DNA of 22,348 nucleotides from a virus, in the IMG/VR virus record IMGVR_UViG_3300036804_000196, positions 1-22,348 of that record. The stretch is one strand, 5' to 3'. Within the stretch, counting starts at the first letter, position 1; every line of letters begins with the position of its first letter. Shown here one piece after another: positions 4,076-22,348 of the stretch. A program made the translations under genes and the position numbers. Under the pieces are notes generated by a model, which saw nothing but the letters and a program-made list of their open reading frames with translations, was not told where the DNA came from and ran no database searches.

Positions 4076-4119
4076 CACTTTGCCGCATTGCTTTTGCTTA
4101 CCAAGAGTAAGCATATATA
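4072..4119 (+). promoter_or_regulatory. Candidate promoter and operator of the moron gene
   Basis: TTGACA at 4072-4077 matches the sigma-70 -35 consensus, and TATATA at 4114-4119 matches a -10 box, although the two are too far apart to form one promoter. A TTTTGC-like -35 at 4092-4097 would give 16-base spacing to TATATA. A perfect 7-bp inverted repeat (TGCTTAC, loop CAAGA, GTAAGCA) at 4095-4113 lies directly against the -10, which is where a repressor or activator would bind. The local base composition is much more A/T-rich than the flanks. Confidence 0.5.
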
Positions 4120-4122
4120 GCG

Positions 4123-4181
4123 GGCCGGGCGGGTGCGCGAACACCCGGGCCGACCCTCACCACCGACGAAGAGGACTCGTC
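4123..4181 (+). promoter_or_regulatory. Structured 5' leader with ribosome binding site in a loop
   Basis: A GC-rich hairpin spans 4123-4151 (GGCC and GGGTG pairing with CACCC and GGCC around the loop CGCGAA, with a bulge). A second small stem, GACGA 4165-4169 with TCGTC 4177-4181, holds the AGAGGA ribosome binding site at 4170-4175 in its loop, eight bases before the ATG at 4183. The layout would permit leader-based control, though this is inferred from sequence complementarity by eye. Confidence 0.45.
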
Positions 4182-4182
4182 A

Positions 4183-4530
4183 ATGGCTATCACGACCCTA
4201 GCACAAGCAGTCGCCGTCGCTGTCGCCGTTGCGGTTGTGGCCGCATCGCACGCCCAGGCCGAGAGTTGTGGCGGCGACGCCTACACGTCGACTTGCCCCG
4301 GGGATGCCGGCGTTAGCCAAGGTGCTTATGTTCCCGGTAATGCCTATCCCGACTACCAAGCCGATCAGCAGCGCCGACTTGCGCTCGCGCTAATGGCCCA
4401 ACAGTCGATGAACCAAGCGAATGCCCAATTCCAAGCGACATTGAGGGCGAACATGCCTCAGTATCGTCCGGCCATGAACTTCAACTGCTACTCGTACGCT
4501 CGCAACACTCTCAATTGCACAGGTCGCTAA
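4183..4530 (+). CDS. Secreted small Cys-containing protein, moron-type cargo gene
   Basis: A 115-residue product with an N-terminal signal sequence: a long Ala/Val hydrophobic core (QAVAVAVAVAVVAASHAQA) ending in an AQA signal-peptidase I site after residue 26. There is no Lys/Arg in the n-region, which is unusual. The mature part of about 89 residues has four Cys (29, 38, 102, 112) that could form two disulfides in the periplasm, and a Gln/Met-rich middle (ALMAQQSMNQANAQFQATL). I do not recognise the family. The gene has its own promoter-like region, leader and terminator inside the late operon, which is the definition of a phage moron, so expression from the prophage and a host-altering role are plausible. 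The target is unknown. Confidence 0.75.
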   Translation: MAITTLAQAVAVAVAVAVVAASHAQAESCGGDAYTSTCPGDAGVSQGAYVPGNAYPDYQADQQRRLALALMAQQSMNQANAQFQATLRANMPQYRPAMNFNCYSYARNTLNCTGR

Positions 4531-4851: not shown

Positions 4852-5511
4852 TCACGACGGCTTTGCTTTGCGGCGCACCCACGCTGCGGAGCGGCTTTTC
4901 GTCTGCGTCTCACGGTAAGCAGGATCCTGCCAGTTGCGCCGACGCTTCTTCGACATCGCGGCGCGGTGCTCCGGATCAGTCCAGAGTTTCTGCATATGCG
5001 CCGATACGGCAGCTTTGGCCTCCGGCGTATTGCGGTAAGCCGCGATCCCCGCGCCTCGCCGTTTCTGATGTTCCGGATCGGCAGCCCGCTCGCGTATCGC
5101 CGCGACTACGCGCGCCCGATACGCCGGATCTGCCCATCTGGCTTTGCGTTCGCGAGACAAAATCGCCCGCGTTTCAGGGCTGGTGGCAATCACTCCACCC
5201 GCAGGCATCAGATTATAAGCATCTGGGTAACGACTTAGAGCGGCGATCTCCGCCGCGTTCAGGCGCGCCTGCATCTCTGCCTTTGGCGTGCCGGTCAGAT
5301 TTACCAGCACCGCGAAGTCAAATGCCTCGGCGCCGTACTTCGTCCACGCGCGCTGCAGATACCTGTTTCGATGCTTACCGCTCGTCAACATCGAGCGATG
5401 CACTTCCCAGCGTCTTCGGATGTTCACCGCCTGGCCGATATAAACCGTGCCGGAGGCTCTGTGCGTCACCGCGTAAATGCCGGGAATGCTGTGCGAATTC
5501 CGTGCAGTCAT
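4852..5511 (-). CDS. GIY-YIG homing endonuclease with repeated DNA-binding modules
   Basis: A 219-residue product with a GIY-YIG nuclease domain at the N-terminus: GIY at residues 11-13, YIG at 24-26, the catalytic Arg in NIRRRWEVH (about 32-34) and a likely metal-binding Glu at 88 (LNAAEIAAL). Residues 105-210 contain three or four repeats of a NUMOD3-like module with a WxDPxxR pattern (RKARWADPAYRARV, MQKLWTDPEHRAAM, RRRNWQDPAYRETQ), the usual DNA-recognition tail of such enzymes. It is antisense to the late operon and sits in the gap before the coat gene. Homing nucleases cut an allele lacking them and are copied in by repair. The gene appears intact, and no flanking intron core was recognised. 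Confidence 0.88.
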   Translation of the reverse strand: MTARNSHSIPGIYAVTHRASGTVYIGQAVNIRRRWEVHRSMLTSGKHRNRYLQRAWTKYGAEAFDFAVLVNLTGTPKAEMQARLNAAEIAALSRYPDAYNLMPAGGVIATSPETRAILSRERKARWADPAYRARVVAAIRERAADPEHQKRRGAGIAAYRNTPEAKAAVSAHMQKLWTDPEHRAAMSKKRRRNWQDPAYRETQTKSRSAAWVRRKAKPS

Positions 5512-9427: not shown

Positions 9428-10877
9428 GCTCCCGCTGCACCAAGGCGCATATGAGGCGCGCTCGCCGATCGCCAACGCGCAGGTGGCGATCAATGTCTAT
9501 CCCGAGCCGAACCCGAAAGACGCGCCGTTTCCGGTGACCCACTACCCCTCGCCCGGGCTTTCGGTGCTGGCCGATTTCACCGGGCAGATCACCGGCTCGG
9601 TGCGCGGGCTCTACATGGCCTCCGACGGGCAGCTCTTCGCGGTCATCGGCACCACCGTCATCTCGCTCTCCGGCAGCCCCGGCGCGGGGTTCGCCTGGGT
9701 GAACCTCGGGCAGCTCACCACCAACAGCGGCAACCTCGTCTCGATGTGCGACAACGGCACCACCCTCGTCATCGTCGACGGTAGCCCGCAGGGATGGCAG
9801 CTGCCGCTGGGTGCGGCCCTGACACCGGGCTCGCTGCAGCTGATCAACGACCCCGCATTCTACGGCTCGAACCGGGTCGACTTTATCGACACCTTCATGG
9901 TGTTCAACCAGCCCGGCACCGGAAATTTCTACACCACGACCTCGAATGTCGTGACGCCCTTCGACCCGACTTATTTTGCCGCGAAAGAAGGGTGGAACGA
10001 TCTTCTCGTCTGCTGCGTCTGCCTGCACGACAACATCTGGCTCCTCGGCAATACCACCGCCGAGGTCTGGTTTAATGCCGGGGGCGCGACGTTTCCCTTT
10101 GCCCGGATGCCCAACAGCATCCTGCAGCAGGGCTGCATCGCGGTCAATTCGCCAGTCGTCGCCGATAATGCCTTGTATTGGCTCAGCCAGGATCGCTGGG
10201 GCCGTAATTTGTGCATGCGCGGCGAAGGCTATGCGGCGCGGCGCGTCTCGAATTTCGCGGTCGAGGACGAGTGGTCCAAATACCCGACCTGTGCCGACGC
10301 GGTCGGCATGGTCTTTCAGTTGGGCGGACACGAGACGGTGGGGTTTTACTTTGCTTCCGGCAATGCCTGGTGGGCCTACGACGCCGCGACCGAGCTCTGG
10401 CACAAGCGCACCTACAGCGGCACGACGACCCCGTGGCTGCCCTACTGCATGGCCGGCTGGGGCCATGTCGAGGGCCTCACCTTCGACGACAACATCGTGG
10501 TCGCCGGCGACCGTACCGCGCCGCGCATCCTGCGGGTCGACCGCAACGCCTACACCGACGCCGGCACGCCGATCACCCGCCAGCGCTCGTGGATGCACAA
10601 CCAGGACGACGGGCAGCGCATCCACCACGCGCGGTTTTCCTGCAGCATGACCGGGGCGGCGATGACCCCGGATACGATCAATTTGGATTGGAGCGACGAC
10701 GCCGGGCAGACCTACGGCATCGCCGTGCCGCAGACGACCGACAACGCCACCAACGGGCAATACCAGTGGCGGCGGCTGGGGTACGCGCGCGACCGGGTCT
10801 ACCGATTGACATGGACGGGACAAGGCGAGTGCGCCCTCAACGGGGCCTATATCGACCTCGTCCCGCAGGGGACGTGA
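9420..10877 (+). CDS. Packaged DNA stabilisation protein, P22 gp10-like
   Basis: A 485-residue product close in length to P22 gp10 (472). It begins with LPLHQGAYEARSPIANAQVA, INVYPEPNPKDAPFPVTHYP and SPGLSVLADF, the recognised entry of this family, and goes on with beta-rich blade-like segments (RGLYMASDGQLFAVIGTTV, GWNDLLVCCVCLHDNIWLLG, AEVWFNAGG, SVSPVVADNALYWLSQDRWG-like). The protein forms the second ring of the tail tube below gp4 and keeps DNA inside the head. It overlaps the preceding gene by eight bases. The C-terminal part (TGQGECALNGAYIDLVPQGT) is as expected. The family call is confident; exact boundaries of blades were not modelled. Confidence 0.87.
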   Translation: MAKLPLHQGAYEARSPIANAQVAINVYPEPNPKDAPFPVTHYPSPGLSVLADFTGQITGSVRGLYMASDGQLFAVIGTTVISLSGSPGAGFAWVNLGQLTTNSGNLVSMCDNGTTLVIVDGSPQGWQLPLGAALTPGSLQLINDPAFYGSNRVDFIDTFMVFNQPGTGNFYTTTSNVVTPFDPTYFAAKEGWNDLLVCCVCLHDNIWLLGNTTAEVWFNAGGATFPFARMPNSILQQGCIAVNSPVVADNALYWLSQDRWGRNLCMRGEGYAARRVSNFAVEDEWSKYPTCADAVGMVFQLGGHETVGFYFASGNAWWAYDAATELWHKRTYSGTTTPWLPYCMAGWGHVEGLTFDDNIVVAGDRTAPRILRVDRNAYTDAGTPITRQRSWMHNQDDGQRIHHARFSCSMTGAAMTPDTINLDWSDDAGQTYGIAVPQTTDNATNGQYQWRRLGYARDRVYRLTWTGQGECALNGAYIDLVPQGT

Positions 10878-10947: not shown

Positions 10948-11216
10948 TCCAGCGCTCGATCTCCCTGAAGCGCCGCCTCGAGGGCGAGACCGTGCGCCAT
11001 GTCGGCTCGCAGGGGCGCCTCGTCTATTACAAGGGCGAGATGCCTGAGCGCTGCGAGCTGCAGGCCGATGGCGAGCGCATCGAGAGCGTCGCGGCGCATG
11101 AGGAACTGGTGCGCGACCTCCACCAGGGCAACCAGCCCAAACCGCAGCCGCCGGCGACTTATTGGCGGCTCATGGACAACAACGGAAATGTCGTCATGCA
11201 GGGGGATGGCTTGTGA
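10944..11216 (+). CDS. Small phage protein, unknown function
   Basis: A 90-residue soluble product beginning MIQRSISLKRRLEGETVRHV, with a mixed alpha/beta look (GRLVYYKGEMPERCELQADG) and ending WRLMDNNGNVVMQGDGL. I do not recognise the family. The start overlaps mini-ORF F, and the 3' end overlaps the GTG of the following gene (GTGA at 11213-11216). The end of the gene supplies GGGGGA as ribosome binding site for that GTG. Its place after the gp10-like gene suggests a tail or ejection accessory role, unproven. Confidence 0.7.
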   Translation: MIQRSISLKRRLEGETVRHVGSQGRLVYYKGEMPERCELQADGERIESVAAHEELVRDLHQGNQPKPQPPATYWRLMDNNGNVVMQGDGL

Positions 11217-11428
11217 GCAGCCAGCCGCCGCGCCCCGTGGGGACCACGGTCCCCGGTCAGACCGCGACCCAGGGAATGATTGCGCCGCTCAACCCCTTTG
11301 TCGACGCGGGCGGTCTCCTGACCGGTGTCAGCTTCCGTTTTCTCTTTGAGTTGTTTCACAACATCAACCAGCTGCAGAGCGAGGTTCAGACACTGCAGCA
11401 GCGCCTCGCCAATGCGGGGATACCATGA
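11213..11428 (+). CDS. Small protein with amphipathic helix and coiled-coil tail
   Basis: A 71-residue product starting with GTG (MSSQPPRPVGTTVPGQTATQ). After a disordered first 30 residues comes a hydrophobic stretch (GGLLTGVSFRFLFELF) and a leucine-heptad tail (INQLQSEVQTLQQRLANAG). GTG at 11213 was selected because it overlaps the upstream stop (GTGA) and follows GGGGGA. A longer frame opening at 11162 would overrun the preceding gene. The stop overlaps the acetyltransferase start (ATGA). The short trimeric-coil pattern resembles small tail or spike adaptor proteins such as that at 18797; function unknown. Confidence 0.65.
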   Translation: MSSQPPRPVGTTVPGQTATQGMIAPLNPFVDAGGLLTGVSFRFLFELFHNINQLQSEVQTLQQRLANAGIP

Positions 11429-11946
11429 GCAGCCAGATCGGCACGGCCGATATGGGGGCGGTGCGTTTCGCGGTGACGTCCATGGATCGTATCTCGTTCC
11501 AGGCGGAAGCCTTCTTCGATGTGATCGAGGAAGCAAAGCCGCTGCTCCAGCGCCATTGGGAGGAGATCGCGCTCGATAAGGCGAGCGTGCCGCTCGATCC
11601 CGACTGGGACCGCTACCGCGAATTTGACAAAAAAAACGGGCTCTCGGTGGTGACCGCCAGGGTCAACGGCGAGCTTGTCGGCTACTGCTGCATGATCCTT
11701 TCCATGGGCCTGCATTATAAAACGACCCCGGAAGCGATTATGGACATCTTCTGGCTGGCGCCTGAGGTGCGCGGCCGGATGGGCGGCGTCAGGCTTTTCC
11801 GCGCGGTCGAGAAGGAATTGCAGCGGCTCGGCATCCGCCGCGTCAATGTCGGCTCGAAGCTCCATAAGGACGTGTCGCGGCTCTTCCTCGCGCTCGGCTA
11901 CCAGCCGATCGAGATGTGGTTCTCAAAACTGCTGGAGGCGCCGTGA
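11425..11946 (+). CDS. GNAT-family N-acetyltransferase in the structural operon
   Basis: A 173-residue product with the GNAT fold pattern: beta strands VVTARVNGELVGYCCMIL (about 75-92), motif A DIFWLAPEVRGRMGGVRLFR (107-126) with the acetyl-CoA pyrophosphate loop at RGRMGG, and the closing strand-helix LFLALGYQPIEMWFSK (153-168). Such enzymes transfer acetyl from acetyl-CoA to an amine. Similar GNAT genes are often found among late genes of P22-like and other podoviruses of Proteobacteria, where the substrate is unknown. It overlaps both neighbours (ATGA and TGATG), so it is expressed with virion proteins and could modify a virion or host surface component. The substrate cannot be read from sequence. 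Confidence 0.82.
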   Translation: MSSQIGTADMGAVRFAVTSMDRISFQAEAFFDVIEEAKPLLQRHWEEIALDKASVPLDPDWDRYREFDKKNGLSVVTARVNGELVGYCCMILSMGLHYKTTPEAIMDIFWLAPEVRGRMGGVRLFRAVEKELQRLGIRRVNVGSKLHKDVSRLFLALGYQPIEMWFSKLLEAP

Positions 11947-13136
11947 TGGTTAGCGGTCCGGTCGTCGGTGGTGCCATCAGCGGGATCGGCTCGCTGGTCG
12001 GCGGCGCGACTGCTTCCTCCGCCTCGCAGCAGGCTGCACAGTCGCAGCTGGCGGCGCAGCAGGCGGCGGATGCGACCGCGCTGCAGGAGCAGCAGCAGGC
12101 CGAGAATTTTTCCAGCGCGTATTTCGGCAACGCTGCGCAGTACCTCTCGCCGTTGATCAATGCGGGACAGGGGGTCGGCAGCGAGTTGCTGCGCGAAATG
12201 GGGGCGCCCTTCGGGGTAGGCACGCCCCCCGCTGCGGCGGCATCGACGCTCCCGGCGCCGGCGTCGACAGGCACCCCCGGTTCGACAGGTCCGCCCGCAG
12301 CGGGCGGCGCTGCGCAGCAGGTGACCTTGCCGGACGGCACCGTCGTCACCGCCCAGGACCTGCAGTACGACCCTGCGACCGGGCAGATCGCCTTCGGATC
12401 GCAAAGCGGCGACCTGCCGGCGAGCGACCAGGCGGCGGCGCAGGCTCTGCTTTATCCCTCGACACCGGCTGCGGCATCGGCTGCGACCGCAACACCGCCG
12501 TCAAACCTGGTGCCGGGCGGGGCGATCCCGGCAGCGGCCGCGGCTCAGTCATCGGGGTGGGCCGGTGCCCCGCCGGCCGGCAGCCTGGGCGCGATGCCCA
12601 GCCTCACCGATCTCTCGCAGCTGCCGGGCTTTTCCTCGACCATGTATTACGGGCAGCAGGGCGTCGCCAACGCCGCCGCCGCCCAGGGGCTTGGGGTATC
12701 CGGAGCTGCGCTCAAGGGCGCGGGCCAATACGCCGCGACCACAGCCAACCAGTTCTATAACAATTACTTCTCGAACTACTGGGCGAACCAGAACAACCGT
12801 TACAACATGCTCTCGGGGTTGATGAACACCGGCGCCAACGCGGCGAACTCCTTGGCCGGCTACTCGACCAATACCGGGGTGCAGGGGGCCTCGAACATCA
12901 CCAGCATCTCGAATGCGATGACGGGGCTTGCCGGGCAGATCGCGCCCTCGGTCGGTGCGGCGCAGCAGGCCTCGGGCAATCTCCTCGGGGCCGGGATAAG
13001 CGGCGCGGCCAACCAGTTCGGCGCCGCCGCCAATGTGCTGATGAACCAGGGCAGCGGCGGCACGACGCTCGGTCCCAGCGGGGGAACCTTTGCCACTTCC
13101 CCGACCGGTGATTACGGCGGCGGCGGAGATTACTGA
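11946..13136 (+). CDS. Putative ejection (internal virion) protein 1
   Basis: A 396-residue Ala/Gln/Gly-rich product. Residues 1-30 are a Gly/Ala-rich hydrophobic segment (GPVVGGAISGIGSLVGGATA), followed by a Gln/Ala helix (SQQAAQSQLAAQQAADATAL). The middle is Pro/Ala linker, and the C-terminal half is rich in Asn, Tyr and Ala (NQFYNNYFSNYWANQNNRYN). This resembles DNA-transfer/ejection proteins of short-tailed phages (place of P22 gp7/gp20), which are packed in the head and form a conduit across the cell envelope. The ATG at 11946 forms TGATG with the GNAT stop. Assignment is from composition, membrane-active look and place in the operon. Confidence 0.6.
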   Translation: MVSGPVVGGAISGIGSLVGGATASSASQQAAQSQLAAQQAADATALQEQQQAENFSSAYFGNAAQYLSPLINAGQGVGSELLREMGAPFGVGTPPAAAASTLPAPASTGTPGSTGPPAAGGAAQQVTLPDGTVVTAQDLQYDPATGQIAFGSQSGDLPASDQAAAQALLYPSTPAAASAATATPPSNLVPGGAIPAAAAAQSSGWAGAPPAGSLGAMPSLTDLSQLPGFSSTMYYGQQGVANAAAAQGLGVSGAALKGAGQYAATTANQFYNNYFSNYWANQNNRYNMLSGLMNTGANAANSLAGYSTNTGVQGASNITSISNAMTGLAGQIAPSVGAAQQASGNLLGAGISGAANQFGAAANVLMNQGSGGTTLGPSGGTFATSPTGDYGGGGDY

Positions 13137-13165
13137 TGAGCGTAGCGAATTTGGGATCCTTTTGA
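13136..13165 (+). CDS. Mini-ORF MSVANLGSF (family copy C)
   Basis: Nine codons plus TGA fill the junction exactly, with TGATG overlaps on both sides (13134-13138 and 13163-13167). Compared with copy B, one base has been lost and one gained near the 3' end, so the total remains 30 bases and the stop still overlaps the next start. GGAG upstream and GGGA at 13153-13156 are possible ribosome binding sites for the mini-ORF and for the next gene. Confidence 0.5.
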   Translation: MSVANLGSF

Positions 13166-14832
13166 TGCCGATCGATCCCGGCACCGGCGCCCTCATCAAC
13201 CAGCTGGCCAACCCGCCCGACCCGATGGCGCGGGTCCAGACGATGTACAACGCGCTGACGGCGCAGAAGAACTTTCAGGCCCAGCAGGCCGCCGCCAACG
13301 CCTACCAGCAATCGGTCGATCCCCAGACCGGCGCCTTTGACATGAACAAGTTCAATGCGCTCACCTCGCAGGGCCCGGGTGCGTGGAACTTCGGCGAGAC
13401 GATGAAATCGTCGGGCGGGGGATTGGCGGCGCAGGGGCAAGGGACGCAGCAGGATCTCTCGGCAAAGCAACAACAGATGTCGGCCCTTGCCGGCTACATG
13501 ACGCCGCTGATTGCCGACGTCAATTCGGGGAAAGGGGTGACTGCGGCGCAGGTTCAAGCGGCGCTCGCGAGCGTGCCGGAAGGTCTCGTGACCCCGCAGA
13601 TGCGGCAAAACGTCGAAAAGCAGCTGTCGGCAATGCAGCCGGGCGACGACGCGTCGAACCTGGTGCGCGGCGCTTACTTCGCGACGATGAACGGGGCGCA
13701 GCAGGTGCAGACGCTCACCGGCAACGTGCAGCCCCTGCAGACCGGGCCGCAGATTGTGCCGACGCAACTGGCACCCTTTGGCCAGAAGCCGACCGCCGCG
13801 CCGCTGACGATGGCTCTGACGCCGCAGAACCAGGTCGAGATCGGCAAGTGGTTGCAGGAGCCCTACGAGTGGGACGACCGTCAGGGGACGCACCAGAAGG
13901 GCACCAAGGCCGATTACTACACCTCGATGGGCATTCCGCTGCCCAGCTTTACCAACAGCACTGTGCCGGCACCGGGATCGCCGCCACCGGCAGCGGCGCC
14001 AACCGCAGCGGCACCGGGTGCGCCTGGCCCATTGTCGAGTGTCACGACCGGGCGCGAGCCGGTGAAGCCGGCCGGTCCAGCGGCCCCCGCAGCTCCAGCG
14101 CCCCCGCCGTCAACCTCGGCCTTGCCGCCCGAGCAGATTAAGGCCGGCCGCGACGCCTACGCCGCCGACCAGGCGCTGCAGGCGACGCTCGGCAGCCGCG
14201 TCGGGCCATTGTCGAGCGCCCTCTCGGTGCTGCGCGCGCATCCCGACATGCAGACTGTCGGGCAGGATGAGCTCAACCAGCTGACCCAGGTGGCGCACGC
14301 TTTTGGCTTCCCGGTCGGCGATCTCACCCAGGCCAATGCCTACCAGGAACTGTCGAAGAACCTCGAACAGTACCTGCGCGCGCTGCCCGGCGCCAACCGC
14401 TCGGATCTGGCGCAGTCGCAGGCCGGCGCCGCCTCCCCGCATATCGGCCAGGGGCGCGGGGCGATGACGGACCTGCTCGCCAAGGCGGTCGGCTACGAAC
14501 GGATGCGTGCCGCCGGGGTCGACTATTTCAACAGCCAGTATGGCGATGCCGCGACCGCGGCGAATAATTCGGCGCAGTACAAGAACAAGACGACCAACTG
14601 GCTCGCCAGTCAGGACCCGGTCGCCTACTCCGCCGACCAGATGACCCCACAGCAATACCAGAGCTACGTCAAAGGCCTATCGGCGAGCGACAAGCAGAAA
14701 TTCGTCAACTCGCGCAAGGAGGCGCTAAAACTTTATCCGACGCTCAAGCTTCCGGGCTCGACCGCGCCGGCGCAACCGGCGGCAACCGCGGCCCCAGCGC
14801 CCAATGCCCCCACTCCGGGGTTCCAGCCCTAA
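13165..14832 (+). CDS. Putative ejection (internal virion) protein 2
   Basis: A 555-residue product with Ala/Gln-rich helices (ALTAQKNFQAQQAAANAYQQ near the start), Pro/Ala linkers at about 270-325 (APAAPAPPPSTSALPPEQ) and helical domains rich in Gln/Asn. Segments such as TPLIADVNSGKGVTAAQVQA and AMTDLLAKAVGYERMRAAGV look folded. No catalytic motif is visible. It sits between ejection protein 1 and the transglycosylase-amidase protein, as P22 gp20 lies between gp7 and gp16, so a role in DNA delivery is likely. The start at 13165 overlaps the mini-ORF stop. The TAA abuts the next ATG without a gap. Confidence 0.6.
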   Translation: MPIDPGTGALINQLANPPDPMARVQTMYNALTAQKNFQAQQAAANAYQQSVDPQTGAFDMNKFNALTSQGPGAWNFGETMKSSGGGLAAQGQGTQQDLSAKQQQMSALAGYMTPLIADVNSGKGVTAAQVQAALASVPEGLVTPQMRQNVEKQLSAMQPGDDASNLVRGAYFATMNGAQQVQTLTGNVQPLQTGPQIVPTQLAPFGQKPTAAPLTMALTPQNQVEIGKWLQEPYEWDDRQGTHQKGTKADYYTSMGIPLPSFTNSTVPAPGSPPPAAAPTAAAPGAPGPLSSVTTGREPVKPAGPAAPAAPAPPPSTSALPPEQIKAGRDAYAADQALQATLGSRVGPLSSALSVLRAHPDMQTVGQDELNQLTQVAHAFGFPVGDLTQANAYQELSKNLEQYLRALPGANRSDLAQSQAGAASPHIGQGRGAMTDLLAKAVGYERMRAAGVDYFNSQYGDAATAANNSAQYKNKTTNWLASQDPVAYSADQMTPQQYQSYVKGLSASDKQKFVNSRKEALKLYPTLKLPGSTAPAQPAATAAPAPNAPTPGFQP

Positions 14833-17802
14833 ATGGCGCTCGACGACTACGATCAGATGATCCTTGGCGCCGCGGCGCAGTACAAGGTCGACCCGCGGCT
14901 CCTGAAAGCCATTATGTCGGTCGAATCGTCGGGCAACCCGGCGGCGGTCGGCGCTCCCTTCAGGTTGCCTAATGGCCGGATGGTGCAGGCGCGGGGCCTG
15001 ATGCAGTTCGCGCCCGATACCGCTGCCCAATACAAGGTCGATGTCAACAACCCGCAATCCTCGATCAACGGCGGGGCCAACTACCTCTCGGATCTCCTCA
15101 ATCAATACGGCTCGCCGGAGCTTGCGCTCAATCACTATAGCGGTGGCGACCCCGGGTATACGAAGAAGATTCTGCAGGCTTACAACAGCGTCAATCTGCC
15201 CGGTACGGCGCCCTCGATCCCCACGCCTGCTGCCGCGTCACCTGGTGCCGGGCAAGCGGGGGCGGGCGCGGGTGGCATAATGACGCCCCACATTGTCGAT
15301 ATGACGCAACAGGCCGGTTTCGGCGACCGTTTTGGCACCTTCGCGCAGCCGCCTATCGGAATGATAATTCATCACACCGGCGGCGGCAGCACTGTCGATC
15401 AGGTCATCAACACGTATAAGGCACGCGGGTTTCCGGCGCAGTTTGTCATTGGCCGCGACGGCACGACCTACCAGACCCTCCCCGATGGCGCGCAAGGGCG
15501 GCAGATCCAGAATGGATGGGGGCCGCTAGGAGAGGGTAAGTCCAACGCCAACACCGAAGGCGTGGAGGTGATCGCCAATAACGACCAGGATGTGACGCCG
15601 GCCCAGCAGCAGGCTGCCGCCGGGCTGGTCGAGGCGCGGTCGCAAAAATGGGGTTACGACCCGCAGACTTCGGTGTGGGGTCACGGTGAGGTCAACCCGG
15701 GCCACAAGGAGCCCGATGAAGGGCGCACAATTACCGCCGGTATCAGGAACGGCAGCTTGCTGCGGCAGATCGGCGTTCCCGAAAACCAGATAAACCCGCC
15801 ACCGCAGATCACCGAGCCGACGCCGCAGACCGCGGCAGCTTATGCACCCGGGGCCGTCGCGCCCGCAGGTCCCTTGGCGCCCCAGGTCGCTTCGACCGCA
15901 CCGATCGGCGCGGTGCATGACCCGACGGTAGCAACGCCGGCTGGTGTGCCATCCGCGCCACCACCACCGACGCCACAGCCACAGCCCGGAGCAACACCAG
16001 TGGCAGACCCTACCGAAGCGCCCGACCTTTCGGGATTGCCGCCGGAAGAGCAGACGATCCTTTCCGGCAAGCCGTTACCGGCAACCGCAGCGGCACCGGC
16101 ACCAACACCCGCGCCCCCGGTCGACACCGCGGGCCTGCCGTCGGAAGAGCAGGCGGCAATCGCGGGGGCAAACGCACCTCCGCCTCCTCCAGGCCCAACA
16201 CCCACCGCGCCTTTGTGGTCGGGCGATTGGGCGGGGCCCAAGCTGGTCCAGGGGGTGGAACAGGGGGTGCGCGATGTCGGCTCGACGCTCAACAGCGTCG
16301 ATGCCTACCTGGCAAAGAACATCCCCGGTTACGCGCAGCTCGATGCCGCAGTCGGCTATACACCCCAAAAAGCGGCGCAGGTTGAGGCGCAGACCGCCGC
16401 CGACACCGCCGCCTATAACCAGGCGAACCCAAGCAATCTGTCGTGGGCTGGGGCCGGGCGCCTCGGCGGCAACATACTGGCGACCGCCCCGGTGGGGGGC
16501 GCCGGGCGTCTTATCGGTGCCGGGGCCGAGCTGGTGCCGGGATTGTCGCTTGCCGCCCGACCCCTCGAGTGGGGCACCGCCGGCGGGCTTGCCAATGCGC
16601 TCACCTCTGGTGGCTCGACGCCGCAGGACTGGGGGACCAATGCACTCCTCGGGGCCGCCGGCGGGGCGGCTTTGGGTGGGGCGACCGGGCTTGCCGGGCG
16701 GGCGCTCTTCGGGTCCGGCGCCAACGCCATCGCCGAGCGCCTGGGGATCGATCTCTCAAAGGGCCAGACCGGCGGGGCGCTCGCCCGACGCATCGAAGAC
16801 ACGACGGCGGCGTTTCCGTTTTCCGGCGCGCCGGCATTCGACCAAGGCCAGCGCCAACAGATCGCCGGCGTGATCGGTCGCGAACTCGGGATGCCGGGCG
16901 AGGTCTCGCAGATCGACACGCCGACGCTCAACCAGGCGAGAAGCGATATCGCCGACCGGATCGAGGATGCTGCAGGCAATATTACCGTGCGCGGCACGCC
17001 GCTCTTGAGTTCGCTCTCCCCGATCGAGACCGCCTCGATCCAGGCCGGTCCCAATACCCCGCAGGCGCACACATTCCGCAATCTCAGCGATCAGCTCTTG
17101 AACCTGACCGCCAACAACAATGGCGATTTGCCGGGCAGCGAGTTTCAGAAATTCATCTCGCGCGGCGGACCGCTTGATACCGCGCTGTCATCGTCGGTTC
17201 CGGAAGTGCGCTCGGTCGGCCAGGGGATCCGCACCGCGCTCCTCAACGCCGCCCAGGGCGGGACTGCCACAACCTCAGACGCGCTCGCGAACCTCGCCAA
17301 GGCCCGCTACCAGTGGAAGGTGGCAAAGACGATCGAGCCGGCGATCACCAAGACGCAAGGGGGCACCGAGGAGATGAGCCTCCCCGGCCTGGCGCAGAAT
17401 ATCCGTACCGGGTTCGACATGACCGGGACCGGCCCCGGCAACAACATGCAGGACCTGGCGCGGCTGATCAGTGGCCCCTTGCGGACATTGCCGTCAAGCG
17501 GCACCGCCGAGCGCCTGCTCTGGCAGAAGCTGCTGATGCCGGGGGAAGCCGCAGGGTCCGCGGCAGCGGCCTTTGCGGGGATGCCCCACGTCGCCGCCGC
17601 TGTGGGTGCGCTCGCCCCGCTTCCCTCACTCGCCGGGCGCTATATGCGCTTCGGCCCGGCGATGGGAATCCCCGGCCTGGGGGCGGTTCAGGGCGTCACC
17701 AATCCACTCATCGCGCGCACCCTCGGCGGCAATATCGGCAACCGCCTGGTGCCGGGCGGCTGGCTGCCGCAGCAGCAGCAACCGCAGCCGGGGCAACCCT
17801 AA
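14833..17802 (+). CDS. Virion lytic transglycosylase-amidase ejection protein
   Basis: A 989-residue multidomain product. Residues 1-115 form an SLT-type lytic transglycosylase: catalytic Glu31 in SVESSGNP, GLMQF at 55-59 and HYSGGDPGY at 101-109. Residues about 165-305 form an Amidase_2/AmpD-like zinc amidase: HH at 180-181, GVEVI near 243, and the HGEVNPGHKEPDEG motif at 284-297, giving probable ligands H180 or H181, H284 and D295 with K292 nearby. A Pro-rich linker follows with two copies of a GLPxEEQxxxxG motif, then a Gly/Ala-rich hydrophobic region and helical C-terminus that look membrane-active, as in ejection proteins (T7 gp16, P22 gp16 place). It would cut both glycan and peptide bonds in the cell wall during DNA entry. 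Confidence 0.88.
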   Translation: MALDDYDQMILGAAAQYKVDPRLLKAIMSVESSGNPAAVGAPFRLPNGRMVQARGLMQFAPDTAAQYKVDVNNPQSSINGGANYLSDLLNQYGSPELALNHYSGGDPGYTKKILQAYNSVNLPGTAPSIPTPAAASPGAGQAGAGAGGIMTPHIVDMTQQAGFGDRFGTFAQPPIGMIIHHTGGGSTVDQVINTYKARGFPAQFVIGRDGTTYQTLPDGAQGRQIQNGWGPLGEGKSNANTEGVEVIANNDQDVTPAQQQAAAGLVEARSQKWGYDPQTSVWGHGEVNPGHKEPDEGRTITAGIRNGSLLRQIGVPENQINPPPQITEPTPQTAAAYAPGAVAPAGPLAPQVASTAPIGAVHDPTVATPAGVPSAPPPPTPQPQPGATPVADPTEAPDLSGLPPEEQTILSGKPLPATAAAPAPTPAPPVDTAGLPSEEQAAIAGANAPPPPPGPTPTAPLWSGDWAGPKLVQGVEQGVRDVGSTLNSVDAYLAKNIPGYAQLDAAVGYTPQKAAQVEAQTAADTAAYNQANPSNLSWAGAGRLGGNILATAPVGGAGRLIGAGAELVPGLSLAARPLEWGTAGGLANALTSGGSTPQDWGTNALLGAAGGAALGGATGLAGRALFGSGANAIAERLGIDLSKGQTGGALARRIEDTTAAFPFSGAPAFDQGQRQQIAGVIGRELGMPGEVSQIDTPTLNQARSDIADRIEDAAGNITVRGTPLLSSLSPIETASIQAGPNTPQAHTFRNLSDQLLNLTANNNGDLPGSEFQKFISRGGPLDTALSSSVPEVRSVGQGIRTALLNAAQGGTATTSDALANLAKARYQWKVAKTIEPAITKTQGGTEEMSLPGLAQNIRTGFDMTGTGPGNNMQDLARLISGPLRTLPSSGTAERLLWQKLLMPGEAAGSAAAAFAGMPHVAAAVGALAPLPSLAGRYMRFGPAMGIPGLGAVQGVTNPLIARTLGGNIGNRLVPGGWLPQQQQPQPGQP

Positions 17803-18047
17803 TGGTGAGCGGGACAATGATCCTCAGCGAGCAGGACATCCCGATCGGCTGGGATCATGGTTTCCCACAAAGCACAGTCCTGGGTGTGCTCCTGGGCGGT
17901 GCGGACATGTGGCGGCTGCATGACCGGGGCACGCGAGCCGACAAAGACCGTCAGCGCCATGGCGGCGAGGAACAGAACCACCACGCCGCGCTTGCCGATG
18001 ACGGCGAGGATGAGAAAGCCGATTGCGGCAATGCCGATGAGTGTCAT
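17799..18047 (-). CDS. Small two-helix membrane protein (paralogue 1), exclusion candidate
   Basis: An 82-residue minus-strand product: hydrophobic segment 1 at residues 2-18 (TLIGIAAIGFLILAVIG), a GKRG turn, and segment 2 at about 22-36 (VVVLFLAAMALTVFV), then a polar His-rich tail. It resembles the next gene over the turn and second helix ([IV]G[KE]RG, then an Ala/Gly/Leu stretch ending in FV). Three bases separate it from that gene, so they are one transcription unit. The stop overlaps the end of the transglycosylase-amidase gene by four bases, tail to tail. Superinfection exclusion or host-envelope modification is inferred from the location only. The C-terminal 35 residues could be run-through of a shorter ancestral frame. 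Confidence 0.6.
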   Translation of the reverse strand: MTLIGIAAIGFLILAVIGKRGVVVLFLAAMALTVFVGSRAPVMQPPHVRTAQEHTQDCALWETMIPADRDVLLAEDHCPAHH

Positions 18048-18050
18048 GAC

Positions 18051-18263
18051 CTATTCACTCTTCGGCATGGTGAAGTATTGGGTGGTCTGGATCGGATTGC
18101 CCCAGATGTTCAGGTTCGGGTCGTATTTCGGCGGGTTGCCGAAAACAAAGATCGCCAATCCGATACCGCCGACGAGGAGGATCCAGAACCCGCGCTCGCC
18201 GACGAGCCTGACGATCATGAAGATAACGGCGCCGACGATGAGACTCAGAATGAGGTGGTCCAT
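18051..18263 (-). CDS. Small two-helix membrane protein (paralogue 2), exclusion candidate
   Basis: A 70-residue product: MDHLILSLIVGAVIFMIVRL (helix 1), VGERG turn, FWILLVGGIGLAIFVFG (helix 2), and a polar tail with PKYDPNLNIWGNPIQTTQYF that may face the periplasm. It is a probable paralogue of the gene at 17799. It begins three bases after the coiled-coil gene stop and ends three bases before the next start, in a compact minus-strand operon of three genes. No known exclusion protein could be recognised by name. Confidence 0.7.
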   Translation of the reverse strand: MDHLILSLIVGAVIFMIVRLVGERGFWILLVGGIGLAIFVFGNPPKYDPNLNIWGNPIQTTQYFTMPKSE

Positions 18264-18266
18264 CGC

Positions 18267-18503
18267 TCAGTGATCCACCAAGTCGAGCCGGCGCTCGATG
18301 CGGTCTATGCGCTCGCCGAGGTGGTCGAGCCGCTCCATGATCACCGCGTAGTGACCCTGCTCCGAGGCGCTCATTTGCGCCATCTGCTGCTCAAGGCGCG
18401 TGATGCGCTGACCTTGCTCGCGCACATCACGCCGCAGCTCGGCAAGTTGCGAGTCGATGCGGTTGAACCGCTCTTTGAGGAAGTCCAGAATTTCGTCAGC
18501 CAT
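18267..18503 (-). CDS. Coiled-coil protein, first gene of the minus-strand cassette
   Basis: A 78-residue product starting MADEILDFLKERFNRIDSQL and continuing as heptad-repeat helix (AELRRDVREQGQRITRLEQQ; ERLDHLGERIDRIERRLDLV). It is almost wholly coiled coil and soluble. The ATG at 18503 was chosen because GGAGGCACAT lies directly before it; an upstream in-frame ATG at 18557 lacks such a site. Similar short coiled-coil proteins are frequent in prophages without known function. It may bind the two membrane proteins encoded downstream, which is inferred from the operon. Confidence 0.75.
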   Translation of the reverse strand: MADEILDFLKERFNRIDSQLAELRRDVREQGQRITRLEQQMAQMSASEQGHYAVIMERLDHLGERIDRIERRLDLVDH

Positions 18504-18614
18504 ATGTGCCTCCAACCCAGGCGCTGTGGTCAGGAGCAGGGGAGTGTCTCTCACCATTCCCCGGCTCCGCTTTTATACCCCAGAACCCTTTAAAAAGCCA
18601 TAAGGATCCGCCGC
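18504..18614. promoter_or_regulatory. Divergent intergenic region, promoter candidates
   Basis: This 111-base gap separates the minus-strand cassette from the plus-strand gene at 18615, so it must hold at least the minus-strand promoter. TATAAA on the minus strand (18572-18577) is a candidate -10; no good -35 is visible. On the plus strand TTTAAAAAG (18589-18597) and AAGGA near 18602 precede the next start. The region is more A/T-rich than its flanks near 18570-18605. Confidence 0.4.
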
Positions 18615-18800
18615 ATGCCTGATGAGCAGACCTACACCATCACGCTGCCGGCGCAGGATTGGCAGGTCCTGTTGACGGGGCTTTTCGAGCTCCCGATGAA
18701 GCTCTCGGCGGCGACCGCCAACCGGCTGCAGACGGCGCTGGCCGATGCGCAGAAACCGCCAGCTGAGATTCCGCATATCGTCAAGGGGGGCAAACCATGA
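18615..18800 (+). CDS. Small phage protein, unknown function
   Basis: A 61-residue product (MPDEQTYTITLPAQDWQVLL at the start), predicted alpha/beta with a helix over LPMKLSAATANRLQTALADA. Proteins of this look, with an ITLPAQDWQ segment, occur as short genes next to phage tail or lysis genes and have no assigned function. AAGGA sits about ten bases before the ATG. Its stop overlaps the following start (ATGA at 18797). Confidence 0.65.
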   Translation: MPDEQTYTITLPAQDWQVLLTGLFELPMKLSAATANRLQTALADAQKPPAEIPHIVKGGKP

Positions 18801-19018
18801 GCTCGCCAGTAAAGCAGCAAACCGTCACCCAGTACCCCGGTGGCGAGCCGACCGTGTTCCTTGGTCCGGACTTTCGCCAGGTCGGCATCGACGGGCTTAT
18901 CGCGGGCGCCTCGGCGATCGCCACGCTGCAGAGCCAGGTCGCGACCATGCAGGGGCAGATCGCCGATCTCACCACGCGGGTCGCGGCATTGGAAAGCGCG
19001 GCACCGCCGCCGGCATAA
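18797..19018 (+). CDS. Small protein with C-terminal trimeric-type coiled coil
   Basis: A 73-residue product: MSSPVKQQTVTQYPGGEPTV, a short beta part (FLGPDFRQVGIDGLIAG) and a leucine/alanine heptad region (ATLQSQVATMQGQIADLTTR, VAALESA). It ends in a Pro-rich tail. It may be an adaptor for the fibre or spike encoded downstream. The start overlaps the upstream stop (ATGA). A very strong ribosome binding site follows its stop (AAGGAGGGGGG at 19018-19028), now cut off from the fibre gene. Confidence 0.65.
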   Translation: MSSPVKQQTVTQYPGGEPTVFLGPDFRQVGIDGLIAGASAIATLQSQVATMQGQIADLTTRVAALESAAPPPA

Positions 19019-19155
19019 GGAGGGGGGAAACCATGAGGCCTAATCGGCGCGGAGAAACTCTCCACGCTGTGCACGCACTGCCTCGAGCCACGCAGCATGC
19101 GCCTCTTCGGGCGTATCAAAACTGCCGAGATGGATCTGCTGATGGTTCAGCTTGA
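19018..19155 (+). other. Stranded ribosome binding site and stub start of the fibre gene
   Basis: AAGGAGGGGGGAAACCATGAG at 19018-19037 is a near-ideal translation start, but the frame from ATG 19033 reads only 40 residues (MRPNRRGETLHAVHALPRAT at its start) antisense through the HNH-AP2 gene before a stop at 19155. The fibre gene itself begins 552 bases later with ATGAGCTCG. The parsimonious reading is that the nuclease block was inserted at the fibre start codon. Confidence 0.55.
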
Positions 19156-19570
19156 GTTGGGCAGTATAGCGCGGGCCTTTGCGCGACCTTCGCACTCCGC
19201 GCGGGAGACCCGTTTCGGGACGGCTGCGGTTCCATTTATTCTGTTGGTGAGTCGCCTCTCGCAAATTCTCCCAGCGATTGTCGCTGCAATCGCGGTTTTT
19301 GTGGTCGATTTGCTTCGGCCATGTGCCGGTCTGCAGCGCCCAGATTACGCGATGCGCCATATATCGAACACGGTCGATTACTACGCCAAAATAGCCCCTA
19401 GACCGGTCGATGCCGCCTGCTTTTCTGCCGGCGAAATATCCATTCCACGCGGCTTGAGCGTGGGCATGTTTGAAGTGGTGCAGCGGGCGTGTCTTCCAAG
19501 TAAGAGTTCCCGTGTCAGGCTCGTACACGAGGCACTCGCGCAGATATTCTGCGGTCGGCAACTTAGGCAT
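19040..19570 (-). CDS. HNH endonuclease with AP2 DNA-binding domain, antisense
   Basis: A 176-residue product. Residues 1-60 fit the usual N-terminal part (YEPDTGTLTWKTRP, GYFAGRKAGGIDRSRGY). An HNH_3 core spans 60-115: MAHRVIWALQTG with His73, IDHKNRDCSDNRWENLREAT with the IDH at 88-90 and N98/N102. An AP2-like domain follows at 121-165 (GLPRGVRRSRKGPRYTAQLK, then IHLGSFDTPEEAHAAW). This HNH-AP2 layout is a well-known free-standing homing endonuclease form. It is antisense, between the small coiled-coil gene and the fibre gene, and seems intact. Confidence 0.9.
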   Translation of the reverse strand: MPKLPTAEYLRECLVYEPDTGTLTWKTRPLHHFKHAHAQAAWNGYFAGRKAGGIDRSRGYFGVVIDRVRYMAHRVIWALQTGTWPKQIDHKNRDCSDNRWENLREATHQQNKWNRSRPETGLPRGVRRSRKGPRYTAQLKLNHQQIHLGSFDTPEEAHAAWLEAVRAQRGEFLRAD

Positions 19571-19584
19571 TGGGAGTGTTTAAC

Positions 19585-21348
19585 ATGAGCTCGCCCATAC
19601 CGCCAGTTCCACAAGGTAATGTTCCTGCAGTAGGCATTCCGAATACTCAGGACTATGCAAGGTTAATTTTTTCCGCGCCGTATTTCGAGACCGTTGCAAT
19701 TGCCGAAATAATACAGCCATCGGTTACTGAGGCAGTCGAGGCTATATTACCTTCTCTTGTTCCTCAATATGTCGATGCGGCTGCGCAGGCCGCAGTGCAA
19801 CAGCTCGCGGTGCTCTTGACCGGCAGCACCATGACCGGGCCGCTTTTCCTCTCGCCCCTGATGCCGACACAGCCCAGCCAGGCCGCGACGATGGCCTATG
19901 TCGACAGCATGATTGCGACCGCGGGCATCCCGGAAGTGCCGCCTGTTCCCTCCGGCCAGGTCTGGGCGCGAGAGACCGGTCAGTGGGTCCCGATCACCCC
20001 GCAGACCGGCGTCTTCCTGCCGCTCTCCGGCGGCACGATGGTCGGCAATATCGCGATGTCCGGCAACACGATCAACGGGCTGGCATCGGTCCCGTCGCTC
20101 CCCAATGGTGCCGCGCCGGCGCAATGGGTGCTTAATCAGATCGCGTCGGTGTCGCTCTTCCAAGGGCAATGGGACGCCGACACCAATGTGCCCGACCTTA
20201 CCCAACTTTCGGTGCGGGTCAATGGCTACACCTGGATCGCGATAACGACCGCTCCCGGCGGCGTCGTCATCGGACAAGCCATTCCGGGCCTGCAGGGCAC
20301 GACCATCTATAACGGCGACACGATCTACTATTCGACCGTCGATGGCGCGTTCTTCTCGATCCACGCGGGCGGTCTGACCTTGCCCGAGGCGGATGCGCGC
20401 TATGTGCAACTCACCGGCAGCCAGATGTCGGGGGCGCTGCTCTTGAATGCCAATGCCTCGCAGCCGCTGCAGGCAGTAACCCTCCAGCAACTGCAAGCAT
20501 TCGTGCCTCCGGGTGCAGTACCTGAGGCTCCAAACGACGGGCAACTCTACGGACGCAACGGGCTGACGACCTCTTGGGCCCCGGTGCTGCCGCTGGCGGG
20601 CGGCATACTCACCGGAATGATTACCCTGTCCGGAAACGCCACGCTGGCGCTGCAGCCGGCGACCTACGGGCAAATGAACAGCGCGATCACCGCCGCGACT
20701 GCCGGCTACTTGCCGCTCTCGGGCGCGGCAATGACCGGGCTGATGACCCTTTCGGGGAACGCCGCGGCATCGCTCAACCCGGTGCCGCTGCAGCAGGTGT
20801 CGGGGATGCTCGCCGCCTATCTGCCGCTCTCAGGCGGGACGGTCGCCGGAGCGCTGACCGCCGGGACAACGCTTGCCGTCACCGGCGCGACGACGCTGAC
20901 CGGAGCGCTCACGCCCACGGGCGGCGTTGTCGGCGTCACCAACGGCTCGAACGCCCCGGCGGGCCAGGTCGGTGAGGTGCTGTCGATCATCGTCACAACC
21001 GCAGTCGGTATGACTTCGGGAACGAACGGCCAAGTGGCCGCGCTGAGCCTTCCCGCCGGCGATTGGGATATCTGGGGCGAAGTAGTTTTCTCCTGGAGTG
21101 CCGGCGCTGCATTCTCGGCGGTCGGCGCTATCAGCAACACGGCAGGAACCTTGCCCGGCCTCATACTTAACGGCTCCCTGCACCAGATCAACCTAAGCGT
21201 CGCGAATCTTTCCGTTGCACGGCTGCCGGTAGCGGTCGCCATCGTCAACGCGGCGACAGCGACAACGATGTATCTGTTCGCGCAAACCGTGTTCTCCAGC
21301 GGCACGGCATCAGCGACCGGTAAGCTCGTCGCCCGACGGGTGCGATAG
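19585..21348 (+). CDS. Tail fibre protein with repeated LPLSGG units
   Basis: A 587-residue product with six degenerate repeats of an L-P-L-S-G-G-x-x-x-G-x-[IL] unit at about residues 78, 145, 276, 335, 376 and 413, a pattern typical of phage tail fibre shafts. Between repeats lies a beta-rich block (SLFQGQWDADTNVPDLTQLS, GYTWIAI, IYNGDTIYYSTVDGAFFSIH). The C-terminal 130 residues are beta-rich without repeats and may form the receptor-binding tip (DWDIWGEVVFSWSAG, ending SGTASATGKLVARRVR). It would bind the host surface. ATG 19585 has GGGAG eight bases upstream. The first 65 codons use many A/T-ending codons, unlike the rest, which suggests recombination in the N-terminal anchoring part. Confidence 0.8.
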   Translation: MSSPIPPVPQGNVPAVGIPNTQDYARLIFSAPYFETVAIAEIIQPSVTEAVEAILPSLVPQYVDAAAQAAVQQLAVLLTGSTMTGPLFLSPLMPTQPSQAATMAYVDSMIATAGIPEVPPVPSGQVWARETGQWVPITPQTGVFLPLSGGTMVGNIAMSGNTINGLASVPSLPNGAAPAQWVLNQIASVSLFQGQWDADTNVPDLTQLSVRVNGYTWIAITTAPGGVVIGQAIPGLQGTTIYNGDTIYYSTVDGAFFSIHAGGLTLPEADARYVQLTGSQMSGALLLNANASQPLQAVTLQQLQAFVPPGAVPEAPNDGQLYGRNGLTTSWAPVLPLAGGILTGMITLSGNATLALQPATYGQMNSAITAATAGYLPLSGAAMTGLMTLSGNAAASLNPVPLQQVSGMLAAYLPLSGGTVAGALTAGTTLAVTGATTLTGALTPTGGVVGVTNGSNAPAGQVGEVLSIIVTTAVGMTSGTNGQVAALSLPAGDWDIWGEVVFSWSAGAAFSAVGAISNTAGTLPGLILNGSLHQINLSVANLSVARLPVAVAIVNAATATTMYLFAQTVFSSGTASATGKLVARRVR

Positions 21349-21350
21349 AT

Positions 21351-21614
21351 GTGAGCGACGCGCCGCCCGACGATTCCGCGGCAGTGCTGCCGCTCGAGGC
21401 GGCGCGCGAGCACCTGTTGCACTGGTGGAGGGAACCGGCCGCCGGCATTCTCTCGCTCGGCATTGGCTGCTTTGACGCCTGGCGCTTTGGCCGGGATGCC
21501 GGCCTCACCGCATCGCTCGACGAGGCGCTGATCGTCGGCGGCGTCATCCTCATCGCCGGCACCCAGCGCTTTATCGGCCGCCCGACAATCGACGGCAACG
21601 GCAACAAACCGTGA
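21351..21614 (+). CDS. Small membrane protein, holin candidate
   Basis: An 87-residue product started by GTG two bases after the fibre stop. The N-terminal part is acidic (MSDAPPDDSAAVLPLEAARE), then two hydrophobic segments follow at about 35-47 (GILSLGIGCFDAW) and 60-73 (ALIVGGVILIAGTQ), with a short polar tail. Two membrane segments and position upstream of an endolysin gene fit a class II-like holin, which opens the inner membrane at lysis. Two-pass phage membrane proteins of other function cannot be excluded. Confidence 0.6.
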   Translation: MSDAPPDDSAAVLPLEAAREHLLHWWREPAAGILSLGIGCFDAWRFGRDAGLTASLDEALIVGGVILIAGTQRFIGRPTIDGNGNKP

Positions 21615-21684: not shown

Positions 21685-21840
21685 ATGAGCGAAGAGCATC
21701 AGGAGCACCAGGATAACCAGCCTGCCGAAAATGCGCGTGAACCCGCACCCGCGCCGGCTACGGTCGAGGAGCGGCTGAAGAAGCTCGAGGAGACTGTCGC
21801 CCGCTGGGCGCCCAAGCTCGCCGCGGTCATCGGCGAATGA
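21685..21840 (+). CDS. Small charged helical protein of the lysis region
   Basis: A 51-residue product, MSEEHQEHQDNQPAENAREP, then a Pro/Ala stretch and an amphipathic helix (TVEERLKKLEETVARWAPKL). No signal peptide or membrane segment. ATG 21685 was chosen over an in-frame upstream GTG because GGGAGG lies seven bases before it. The stop overlaps the endolysin start (ATGA). The role is unknown; it is not a recognisable spanin or antiholin. Confidence 0.6.
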   Translation: MSEEHQEHQDNQPAENAREPAPAPATVEERLKKLEETVARWAPKLAAVIGE

Positions 21841-22348
21841 GCGCCTTCGACCAGGCGTTCGAAATTGTCGTGGGGCACGAGGGGGGATATTCGAATAATT
21901 CCGCCGACCCCGGCGGCGAAACAAAATACGGTATTTCGAAAAGGTCGTATCCGAGCGTCAATATCGGCGCTCTCACGCTCGACCAGGCGAAGGCGATCTA
22001 CCAGGCCGATTACTGGAACCGTGCGGGCTGCGATCTATGCGATCCGGGCCTCGCCCTCATCGTCTTTGATGCCGCGGTCAATAACGGTGTCGGGCAGGCA
22101 ATCCGCTGGCTGCAGGCAGCGGTCGGGGTCAAGGCCGATGGGGTCATCGGCCCCGCGACCAGGGCGGCGATCGCCAAAGCCGACGCGCAGGACGCGCTCG
22201 TCGCGGCACACTCCGCACGCATCCACATGATGGCAGGGCTCAGTACCTGGGCGACCTTTGGCCGCGGCTGGTCGAAGCGCCTGGCGCAGCTGCCCTACCA
22301 GGCCGCGAAGATGACGGGCAATGACGCGCCGGCAGCATCGTCCTCGGT
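21837..22348 (+). CDS. GH108 endolysin (3' end outside window)
   Basis: Reading from ATG 21837 (overlapping the previous stop as ATGA), the product starts MSAFDQAFEIVVGHEGGYSN and carries the GH108 signature: catalytic Glu15 in HEGGYSNN, then DPGGETKYGISK. A helical middle follows (LTLDQAKAIYQADYWNRAGC, LALIVFDAAVNNGVGQAIRW). The stretch LQAAVGVKADGVIGPATRAA is the usual peptidoglycan-binding (PG_binding_3) repeat. GH108 enzymes are muramidases that cut the glycan backbone at the end of infection. At least 170 residues lie within the window, and the frame is still open at the last base. No signal sequence is seen, so release depends on a holin. Confidence 0.92.
   Translation, partial: MSAFDQAFEIVVGHEGGYSNNSADPGGETKYGISKRSYPSVNIGALTLDQAKAIYQADYWNRAGCDLCDPGLALIVFDAAVNNGVGQAIRWLQAAVGVKADGVIGPATRAAIAKADAQDALVAAHSARIHMMAGLSTWATFGRGWSKRLAQLPYQAAKMTGNDAPAASSS

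Follow-up and report, generated by a model that had tools for sequence, protein, structure and literature searches.

An antisense membrane-protein cassette in the sieA slot of P22-like soil phages, with a covarying leader and co-inheritance with ejection proteins

Background

In phage P22, genes 16 and 9 flank a slot occupied by sieA, orf59a, mnt, arc and ant. The SieA homologues described are enterobacterial and, where examined, always lie in this slot (Leavitt et al., PMC10883804). P22 mutations that escape SieA fall in the C-terminal regions of the ejection proteins gp16 and gp20, and the phages excluded by SieA are the same for types A and B, which share only 24% identity (PMC10883804), so matched pairing is not required. 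How exclusion keeps pace with very diverse ejection proteins is left open in the same study (PMC10883804).

The stretch analysed here (the window, a viral record of 22,348 bases) was previously given an initial annotation that placed an antisense membrane cassette at the P22 sieA/immI position and proposed superinfection exclusion or lysogenic conversion as its role.

Results

The gene order of the window is P22-like, and its source is a soil virus of bacteria, a temperate P22-like phage. Coat (phrog_283) and Hc3 head-closure (phrog_578) genes are followed by three ejection genes, a tail fibre (19570..21348, +; phrog_11393, E 1.6e-13), a holin-like gene (21351-21614) and a GH108 endolysin (21837-22346). 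The ejection protein at the gp20 position (13165..14832, +) lies within an ORF at 13090-14832, its start being placed provisionally near 13165. The last ejection protein, at the P22 gp16 position (14833..17802, +), carries SLT transglycosylase and Amidase_2 domains. The interval between this gene and the fibre additionally holds two small plus-strand genes, one of which (18615..18800, +) is conserved and forms the right-hand boundary of the slot, and a minus-strand gene adjoining the slot for a free-standing, homing-type HNH endonuclease with a weak AP2 match (19040-19570, -). A GIY-YIG endonuclease, also free-standing and homing-type, is inserted among the structural genes (4852-5511, -); the HNH gene likewise lies between structural genes, and both are without the leader described below. 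A GNAT acetyltransferase gene (11425-11946, +) located between the head-closure and ejection genes is conserved in most relatives.

The cassette consists of three tightly packed minus-strand genes between the last ejection protein and the fibre (17799-18503, exactly as initially annotated), separated by gaps of 3 nt. The operon's first gene encodes a coiled-coil protein of 78 aa without a transmembrane helix (18267-18503, -). It is followed by the membrane proteins M1 (18051-18263, -; 70 aa, two predicted helices) and M2 (17799-18047, -; 82 aa, a predicted helical hairpin with H2-17 and H19-38), and M2 overlaps the stop of the ejection gene by 4 nt, tail to tail. Placement at the sieA position also held, given that P22 carries sieA antisense between genes 16 and 9. 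The [IV]G[KE]RG turn noted earlier was recovered in both membrane proteins (VGERG in M1, IGKRG in M2), and their suspected paralogy was borne out by a local score of 69, reached by 0 of 1000 shuffles that kept segment composition; unrelated cassette membrane proteins of other phages scored 42 or less. An AlphaFold model of M2 (pLDDT 64) sufficed for the hairpin and was too low in confidence for a fold search. Hydropathy and this low-confidence model are compatible with a putative inner-membrane location of M1 and M2.

Orthologues of the coiled-coil protein were found in L004 (13102-13338; about 88-90% amino acid identity) and in L006 (50% identical). Between the window and L004, this gene changed mostly at minus-frame third positions (7/3/21), with a dN of 0.069, a dS of 0.51 and a dN/dS of about 0.13. 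Since the gene evolves as a minus-strand protein, the cassette genes are taken to be real, and the cassette is almost certainly a genuine antisense moron operon. The orthologue of M2 (L012 15207-15458, -) is about 42-44% identical, with pS exceeding pN. Each of these two M2 orthologues has exactly two tail cysteines about 20 residues apart (58/78 in the window, 63/82 in L012), which would fit a periplasmic disulfide.

A direct search with M1 in viral contigs returned nothing, and M2, the coiled-coil-TM protein of one relative and the L122 membrane protein were without a relative in 50,697 annotated phages. The membrane proteins tested gave no convincing match in Pfam, PHROGs or PADLOC; none matched any PADLOC model, and the PADLOC matches of coiled coils look generic. 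The coiled coil scored 19.5 bits against Haemolysin XhlA (PF10779), below the Pfam cut-off of 34.7. This weak likeness, together with the coiled-coil and TM proteins encoded by relatives, would suit an XhlA-like or antiholin-like accessory of lysis. Such a role is quite improbable: the score is under the cut-off, the cassette runs opposite to the late genes, and the holin-like gene and GH108 endolysin lie elsewhere.

Six genomes have in common, upstream of the first minus-strand gene, a promoter-like box, a stem-loop, CCTGACCA, a Shine-Dalgarno sequence and usually ATGGCT. In the window, this leader (18527..18577, -) comprises a TATAAA box (18577-18572), the stem-loop (18568-18533) and the conserved CCTGACCA (18534-18527), and the operon's Shine-Dalgarno-like GGAGG follows at 18513-18509. 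Among 23 leaders, 12 of 13 pairs had compensatory changes and 93% of cells paired in an alignment fitted to the model, which favours structure; no shuffle or slid control came near, and the pattern scan described below did not select the inner stem. The putative promoter was read from the leader alignment, in which the box-to-stem distance varies; scanning with a sigma-70 consensus detected neither a promoter nor a terminator.

The CUCC of CUCCUGACCA has two potential partners, the upstream GGAG and the Shine-Dalgarno sequence, which makes a translational switch possible; it is just as possible that the leader simply stabilises the 5' end. Action as a DNA operator is judged less likely, since pairing is preserved although the stem sequence varies. 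The stem-loop was also considered as a plus-strand terminator; this idea was abandoned, as only a subset of members has a T run behind it. Three leaders gave a sub-threshold Rfam match to R1162-like plasmid antisense RNA (RF00043; 28-31 bits against a gathering threshold of 55), all on the minus strand (window 18496-18569, L024 11212-11284 and L028 19425-19497). The match spans the hairpin, ACCA and the start codon, corresponding to the hairpin, Shine-Dalgarno and ATGGCT layout, and was taken as a resemblance with a score far under threshold.

Additional leaders were found by a covariance model in the window, in L143 (one) and in L151 (two). The second window copy (4107..4167, +; model R1, 24.1 bits, E 8.5e-4 over 761 kb) precedes a separate moron between the scaffold and coat genes, a signal-peptide-like ORF of 115 aa that starts with ATGGCT (4183..4530, +) and matches no Pfam family. 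The L151 leaders (10081-10143 and 14375-14436) precede an endonuclease-VII-like gene and a coiled-coil-TM gene. Scanning a viral contig collection with a three-part sequence pattern yielded 18 stretches, 17 of which look like leader members. The genes behind them mostly resemble, as judged by eye, HNH, GIY-YIG or endonuclease-VII homing endonucleases, and the remainder are membrane or coiled-coil morons. Copies in front of genes of these kinds were observed in L158-L175 (including L164 10482-10543 and L158 7464-7521); in these contigs and in L151, the stretch fetched was mostly unrelated to the window's genes. Distant relatives led to three bacterial genomes, in which the leader model had no match at E 0.001, and a search of the literature with the leader string gave only unrelated matches among the matches listed, with no description found.

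We hold with roughly even confidence that the leader represents a portable expression element of soil phages that has not been described before, common to exclusion-type membrane cassettes, other morons and several free-standing homing-endonuclease families, which would form one regulon outside the lytic programme. The layout of this element is a promoter-like box, a 5'-terminal covarying stem-loop, CCTGACCA, a Shine-Dalgarno sequence and ATGGCT. The sharing of the leader with many likely homing endonucleases and the HNH gene adjoining the slot could also be read as marks of selfish cargo, moved by homing endonucleases with no benefit to phage or lysogen. Purifying selection on the cassette genes and the recurrence of membrane-protein content make this very improbable.

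Close relatives were picked by Hc3 scans of viral contigs, and the slot was readable in 11 genomes (the window, L004, L006, L007, L012, L019, L021, L022, L024, L025 and L028). Minus-strand mini genes were present in all 11, with one or more of them encoding a membrane protein and converging on the ejection gene. The contents vary (coiled coils, coiled coil plus TM, TM plus coiled coil, membrane proteins), and the membrane proteins fall into about six types with no detectable mutual similarity. Neither this variety among relatives nor the structured leader features in the initial annotation. Most relatives with an Hc3 identity of about 41% or less were without such a cassette. A further scan turned up other contigs (L093, L100, L102, L109, L111, L113, L114 and L122) in which antisense membrane genes directly adjoin the stop of the ejection gene, and a scan with the window-type ejection C-terminus added, besides L012, only one distant contig. 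In PAE2, the minus-strand genes annotated behind the ejection gene fall within a long plus-strand ORF, and they were not scored as a cassette. In L024, a 23-codon ORF behind the leader (~11144-11220, -; MADTNHITDQQQ...) ends in TGAGCAATG, which is the start of the membrane gene; it looks like a shrunken coiled-coil gene retained for translational coupling.

Integrases were identified in eight contigs of the close group (G002, G004, G006, G008, G013, G014, G015 and G017), and none scored above threshold in two 37-kb contigs, L019 and L025. The relatives are temperate by integrase, and the earlier lysogenic-conversion (moron) reading was supported.

Ejection C-termini form two groups, and the membrane-gene type tracks them (window/L012, L007/L021/L022, L024/L028 and, more weakly, L004/L025). 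By Mantel test, membrane-gene type correlated with the ejection C-terminus (r 0.55; p 0.0004 and 0.001 in two runs) and with the gp20-position gene (r 0.50, p 0.005), and did not follow the phage backbone (Hc3, r -0.04). The Spearman correlation for the same pairs of membrane gene and ejection C-terminus was weak (0.20, p 0.14) because most pairs show no similarity and the signal sits in a few related pairs. Removal of the near-duplicate L022 left an r of 0.53 (p 0.002) for the ejection C-terminus. At the eight loci with the right-hand flanking gene, r was 0.51 (p 0.03) for the ejection C-terminus and 0.18 (p 0.14) for that neighbour; without L022, these values were 0.42 (p 0.05) and -0.10. 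Coiled-coil genes, unlike membrane genes, do not stay with the ejection C-terminus. The window displays module exchange directly: its backbone is L004-like (coat protein 91%, fibre N-terminus 85%, coiled coil likewise), whereas its gp20-position gene (52%), ejection C-terminus (55%) and M2 (42%) form an L012-type block.

Physical adjacency (the 4-nt overlap) without functional matching could give the same co-inheritance, and the data fit both. The cassette may be general lysogenic-conversion cargo that alters the host envelope (stress, adsorption or other phage types), its match to the ejection gene being hitch-hiking by adjacency. The very diverse, unrelated slot contents and the leader common to unrelated morons and homing endonucleases would agree with such cargo, but membrane proteins occur in every relative and are tied to the ejection C-terminus while coiled-coil genes are not; we regard it as possible but doubtful. 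The tight pairing could also reflect self-protection, in which the membrane proteins would neutralise an ejection protein (a transglycosylase/amidase, possibly with a membrane-inserting C-terminus) that the same cell makes or receives by injection. Its SLT and Amidase_2 domains suit this proposal, but the cassette lies opposite to the late operon, so that co-expression is not obvious, and we know of no such factor for P22; self-protection is accordingly improbable.

Discussion

Our preferred reading, which we consider to have about an even chance of being correct, is that the cassette would be expressed during lysogeny and block DNA ejection by related superinfecting phages in the manner of SieA. 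Transcription of the moron operon would start at its own promoter, with a structured leader, opposite to the late genes, and would most likely take place in the lysogen. Placed in the inner membrane, the two hairpins would act as P22 SieA does and prevent the gp20/gp16-type DNA-delivery conduit of superinfecting relatives from assembling or functioning, with the coiled-coil protein as a putative cytoplasmic accessory or oligomerisation partner.

The SieA-like reading is favoured because slot and orientation equal those of P22 sieA, because all readable slots and several distant contigs (L100, L109, L111, L113, L114 and L122) hold such genes, and because relatives carry integrases. Co-inheritance of membrane-gene type with the ejection C-terminus and the gp20-position gene lends exclusion new support. 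Against it stand the lack of SieA similarity and of a PADLOC match for the membrane proteins, and the absence of an integrase from the window itself, a 22-kb fragment. Linkage to the ejection gene alone could moreover explain the co-inheritance, and matched pairing is not required for SieA.

Slots whose membrane gene travels with the ejection type offer natural matched pairs for direct tests of exclusion, and the shared leader provides a sequence handle for locating such morons and homing endonucleases. The findings suggest that this slot harbours exclusion genes far outside the enterobacteria too, in families that no searched library recognises.

For the leader, the nearest published parallels found are the SAS/ESAS of cluster K mycobacteriophages and the hairpins of T-even homing-endonuclease genes. 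SAS/ESAS are likewise repeated, start-associated sequences with inverted repeats before several genes (PMC3203893); the leader differs in sequence, in having one long covarying stem-loop plus CCTGACCA, and in being tied to homing endonucleases and morons. The T-even RBS-proximal hairpins are also stable RNA hairpins upstream of a gene, and that of seg43(25) similarly lies upstream without covering the RBS (PMC2988022), whereas here several endonuclease families, as well as membrane morons, have one element in common.

HK97 gp15 and other inner-membrane exclusion proteins are small membrane proteins acting on the DNA-injection machinery (PMC10883804). They differ in belonging to tape-measure systems of long-tailed phages, and their likeness to the cassette is by description only. 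The P22 immI genes (mnt/arc/ant) occupy the same genome interval, and to that extent the proposed immunity-I analogy stood; it failed for the window, where 17799-19570 holds no Arc, Mnt or antirepressor gene. In the related Acetobacter phage phiAX1, the slot carries Arc-type repressors and KilA-N genes, so the analogy applies to some relatives.

With SieA (P22; prophage types A, B and C) the cassette shares the slot between the gp16-position ejection gene and the fibre or spike, antisense orientation, its own (here putative) promoter region, a membrane protein product and a temperate P22-like phage as carrier. SieA is a single three-helix protein of 162-164 aa, whereas the cassette encodes two paralogous hairpins of 70-82 aa and a coiled coil; set against a SieA of ~160 aa with three transmembrane helices, M1 and M2 (70 and 82 aa) are half the size and two-helix hairpins. 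Compared with type A SieA (P22), phmmer found no match and blastp only chance-level pieces of 11-15 aa, and the FxRYPxEAxxFNK motif was absent from 13 of 13 cassette membrane proteins. The window's relatives also stand outside the enterobacterial SieA set of PMC10883804. The cassette is no member of the SieA family, yet it may act like SieA.
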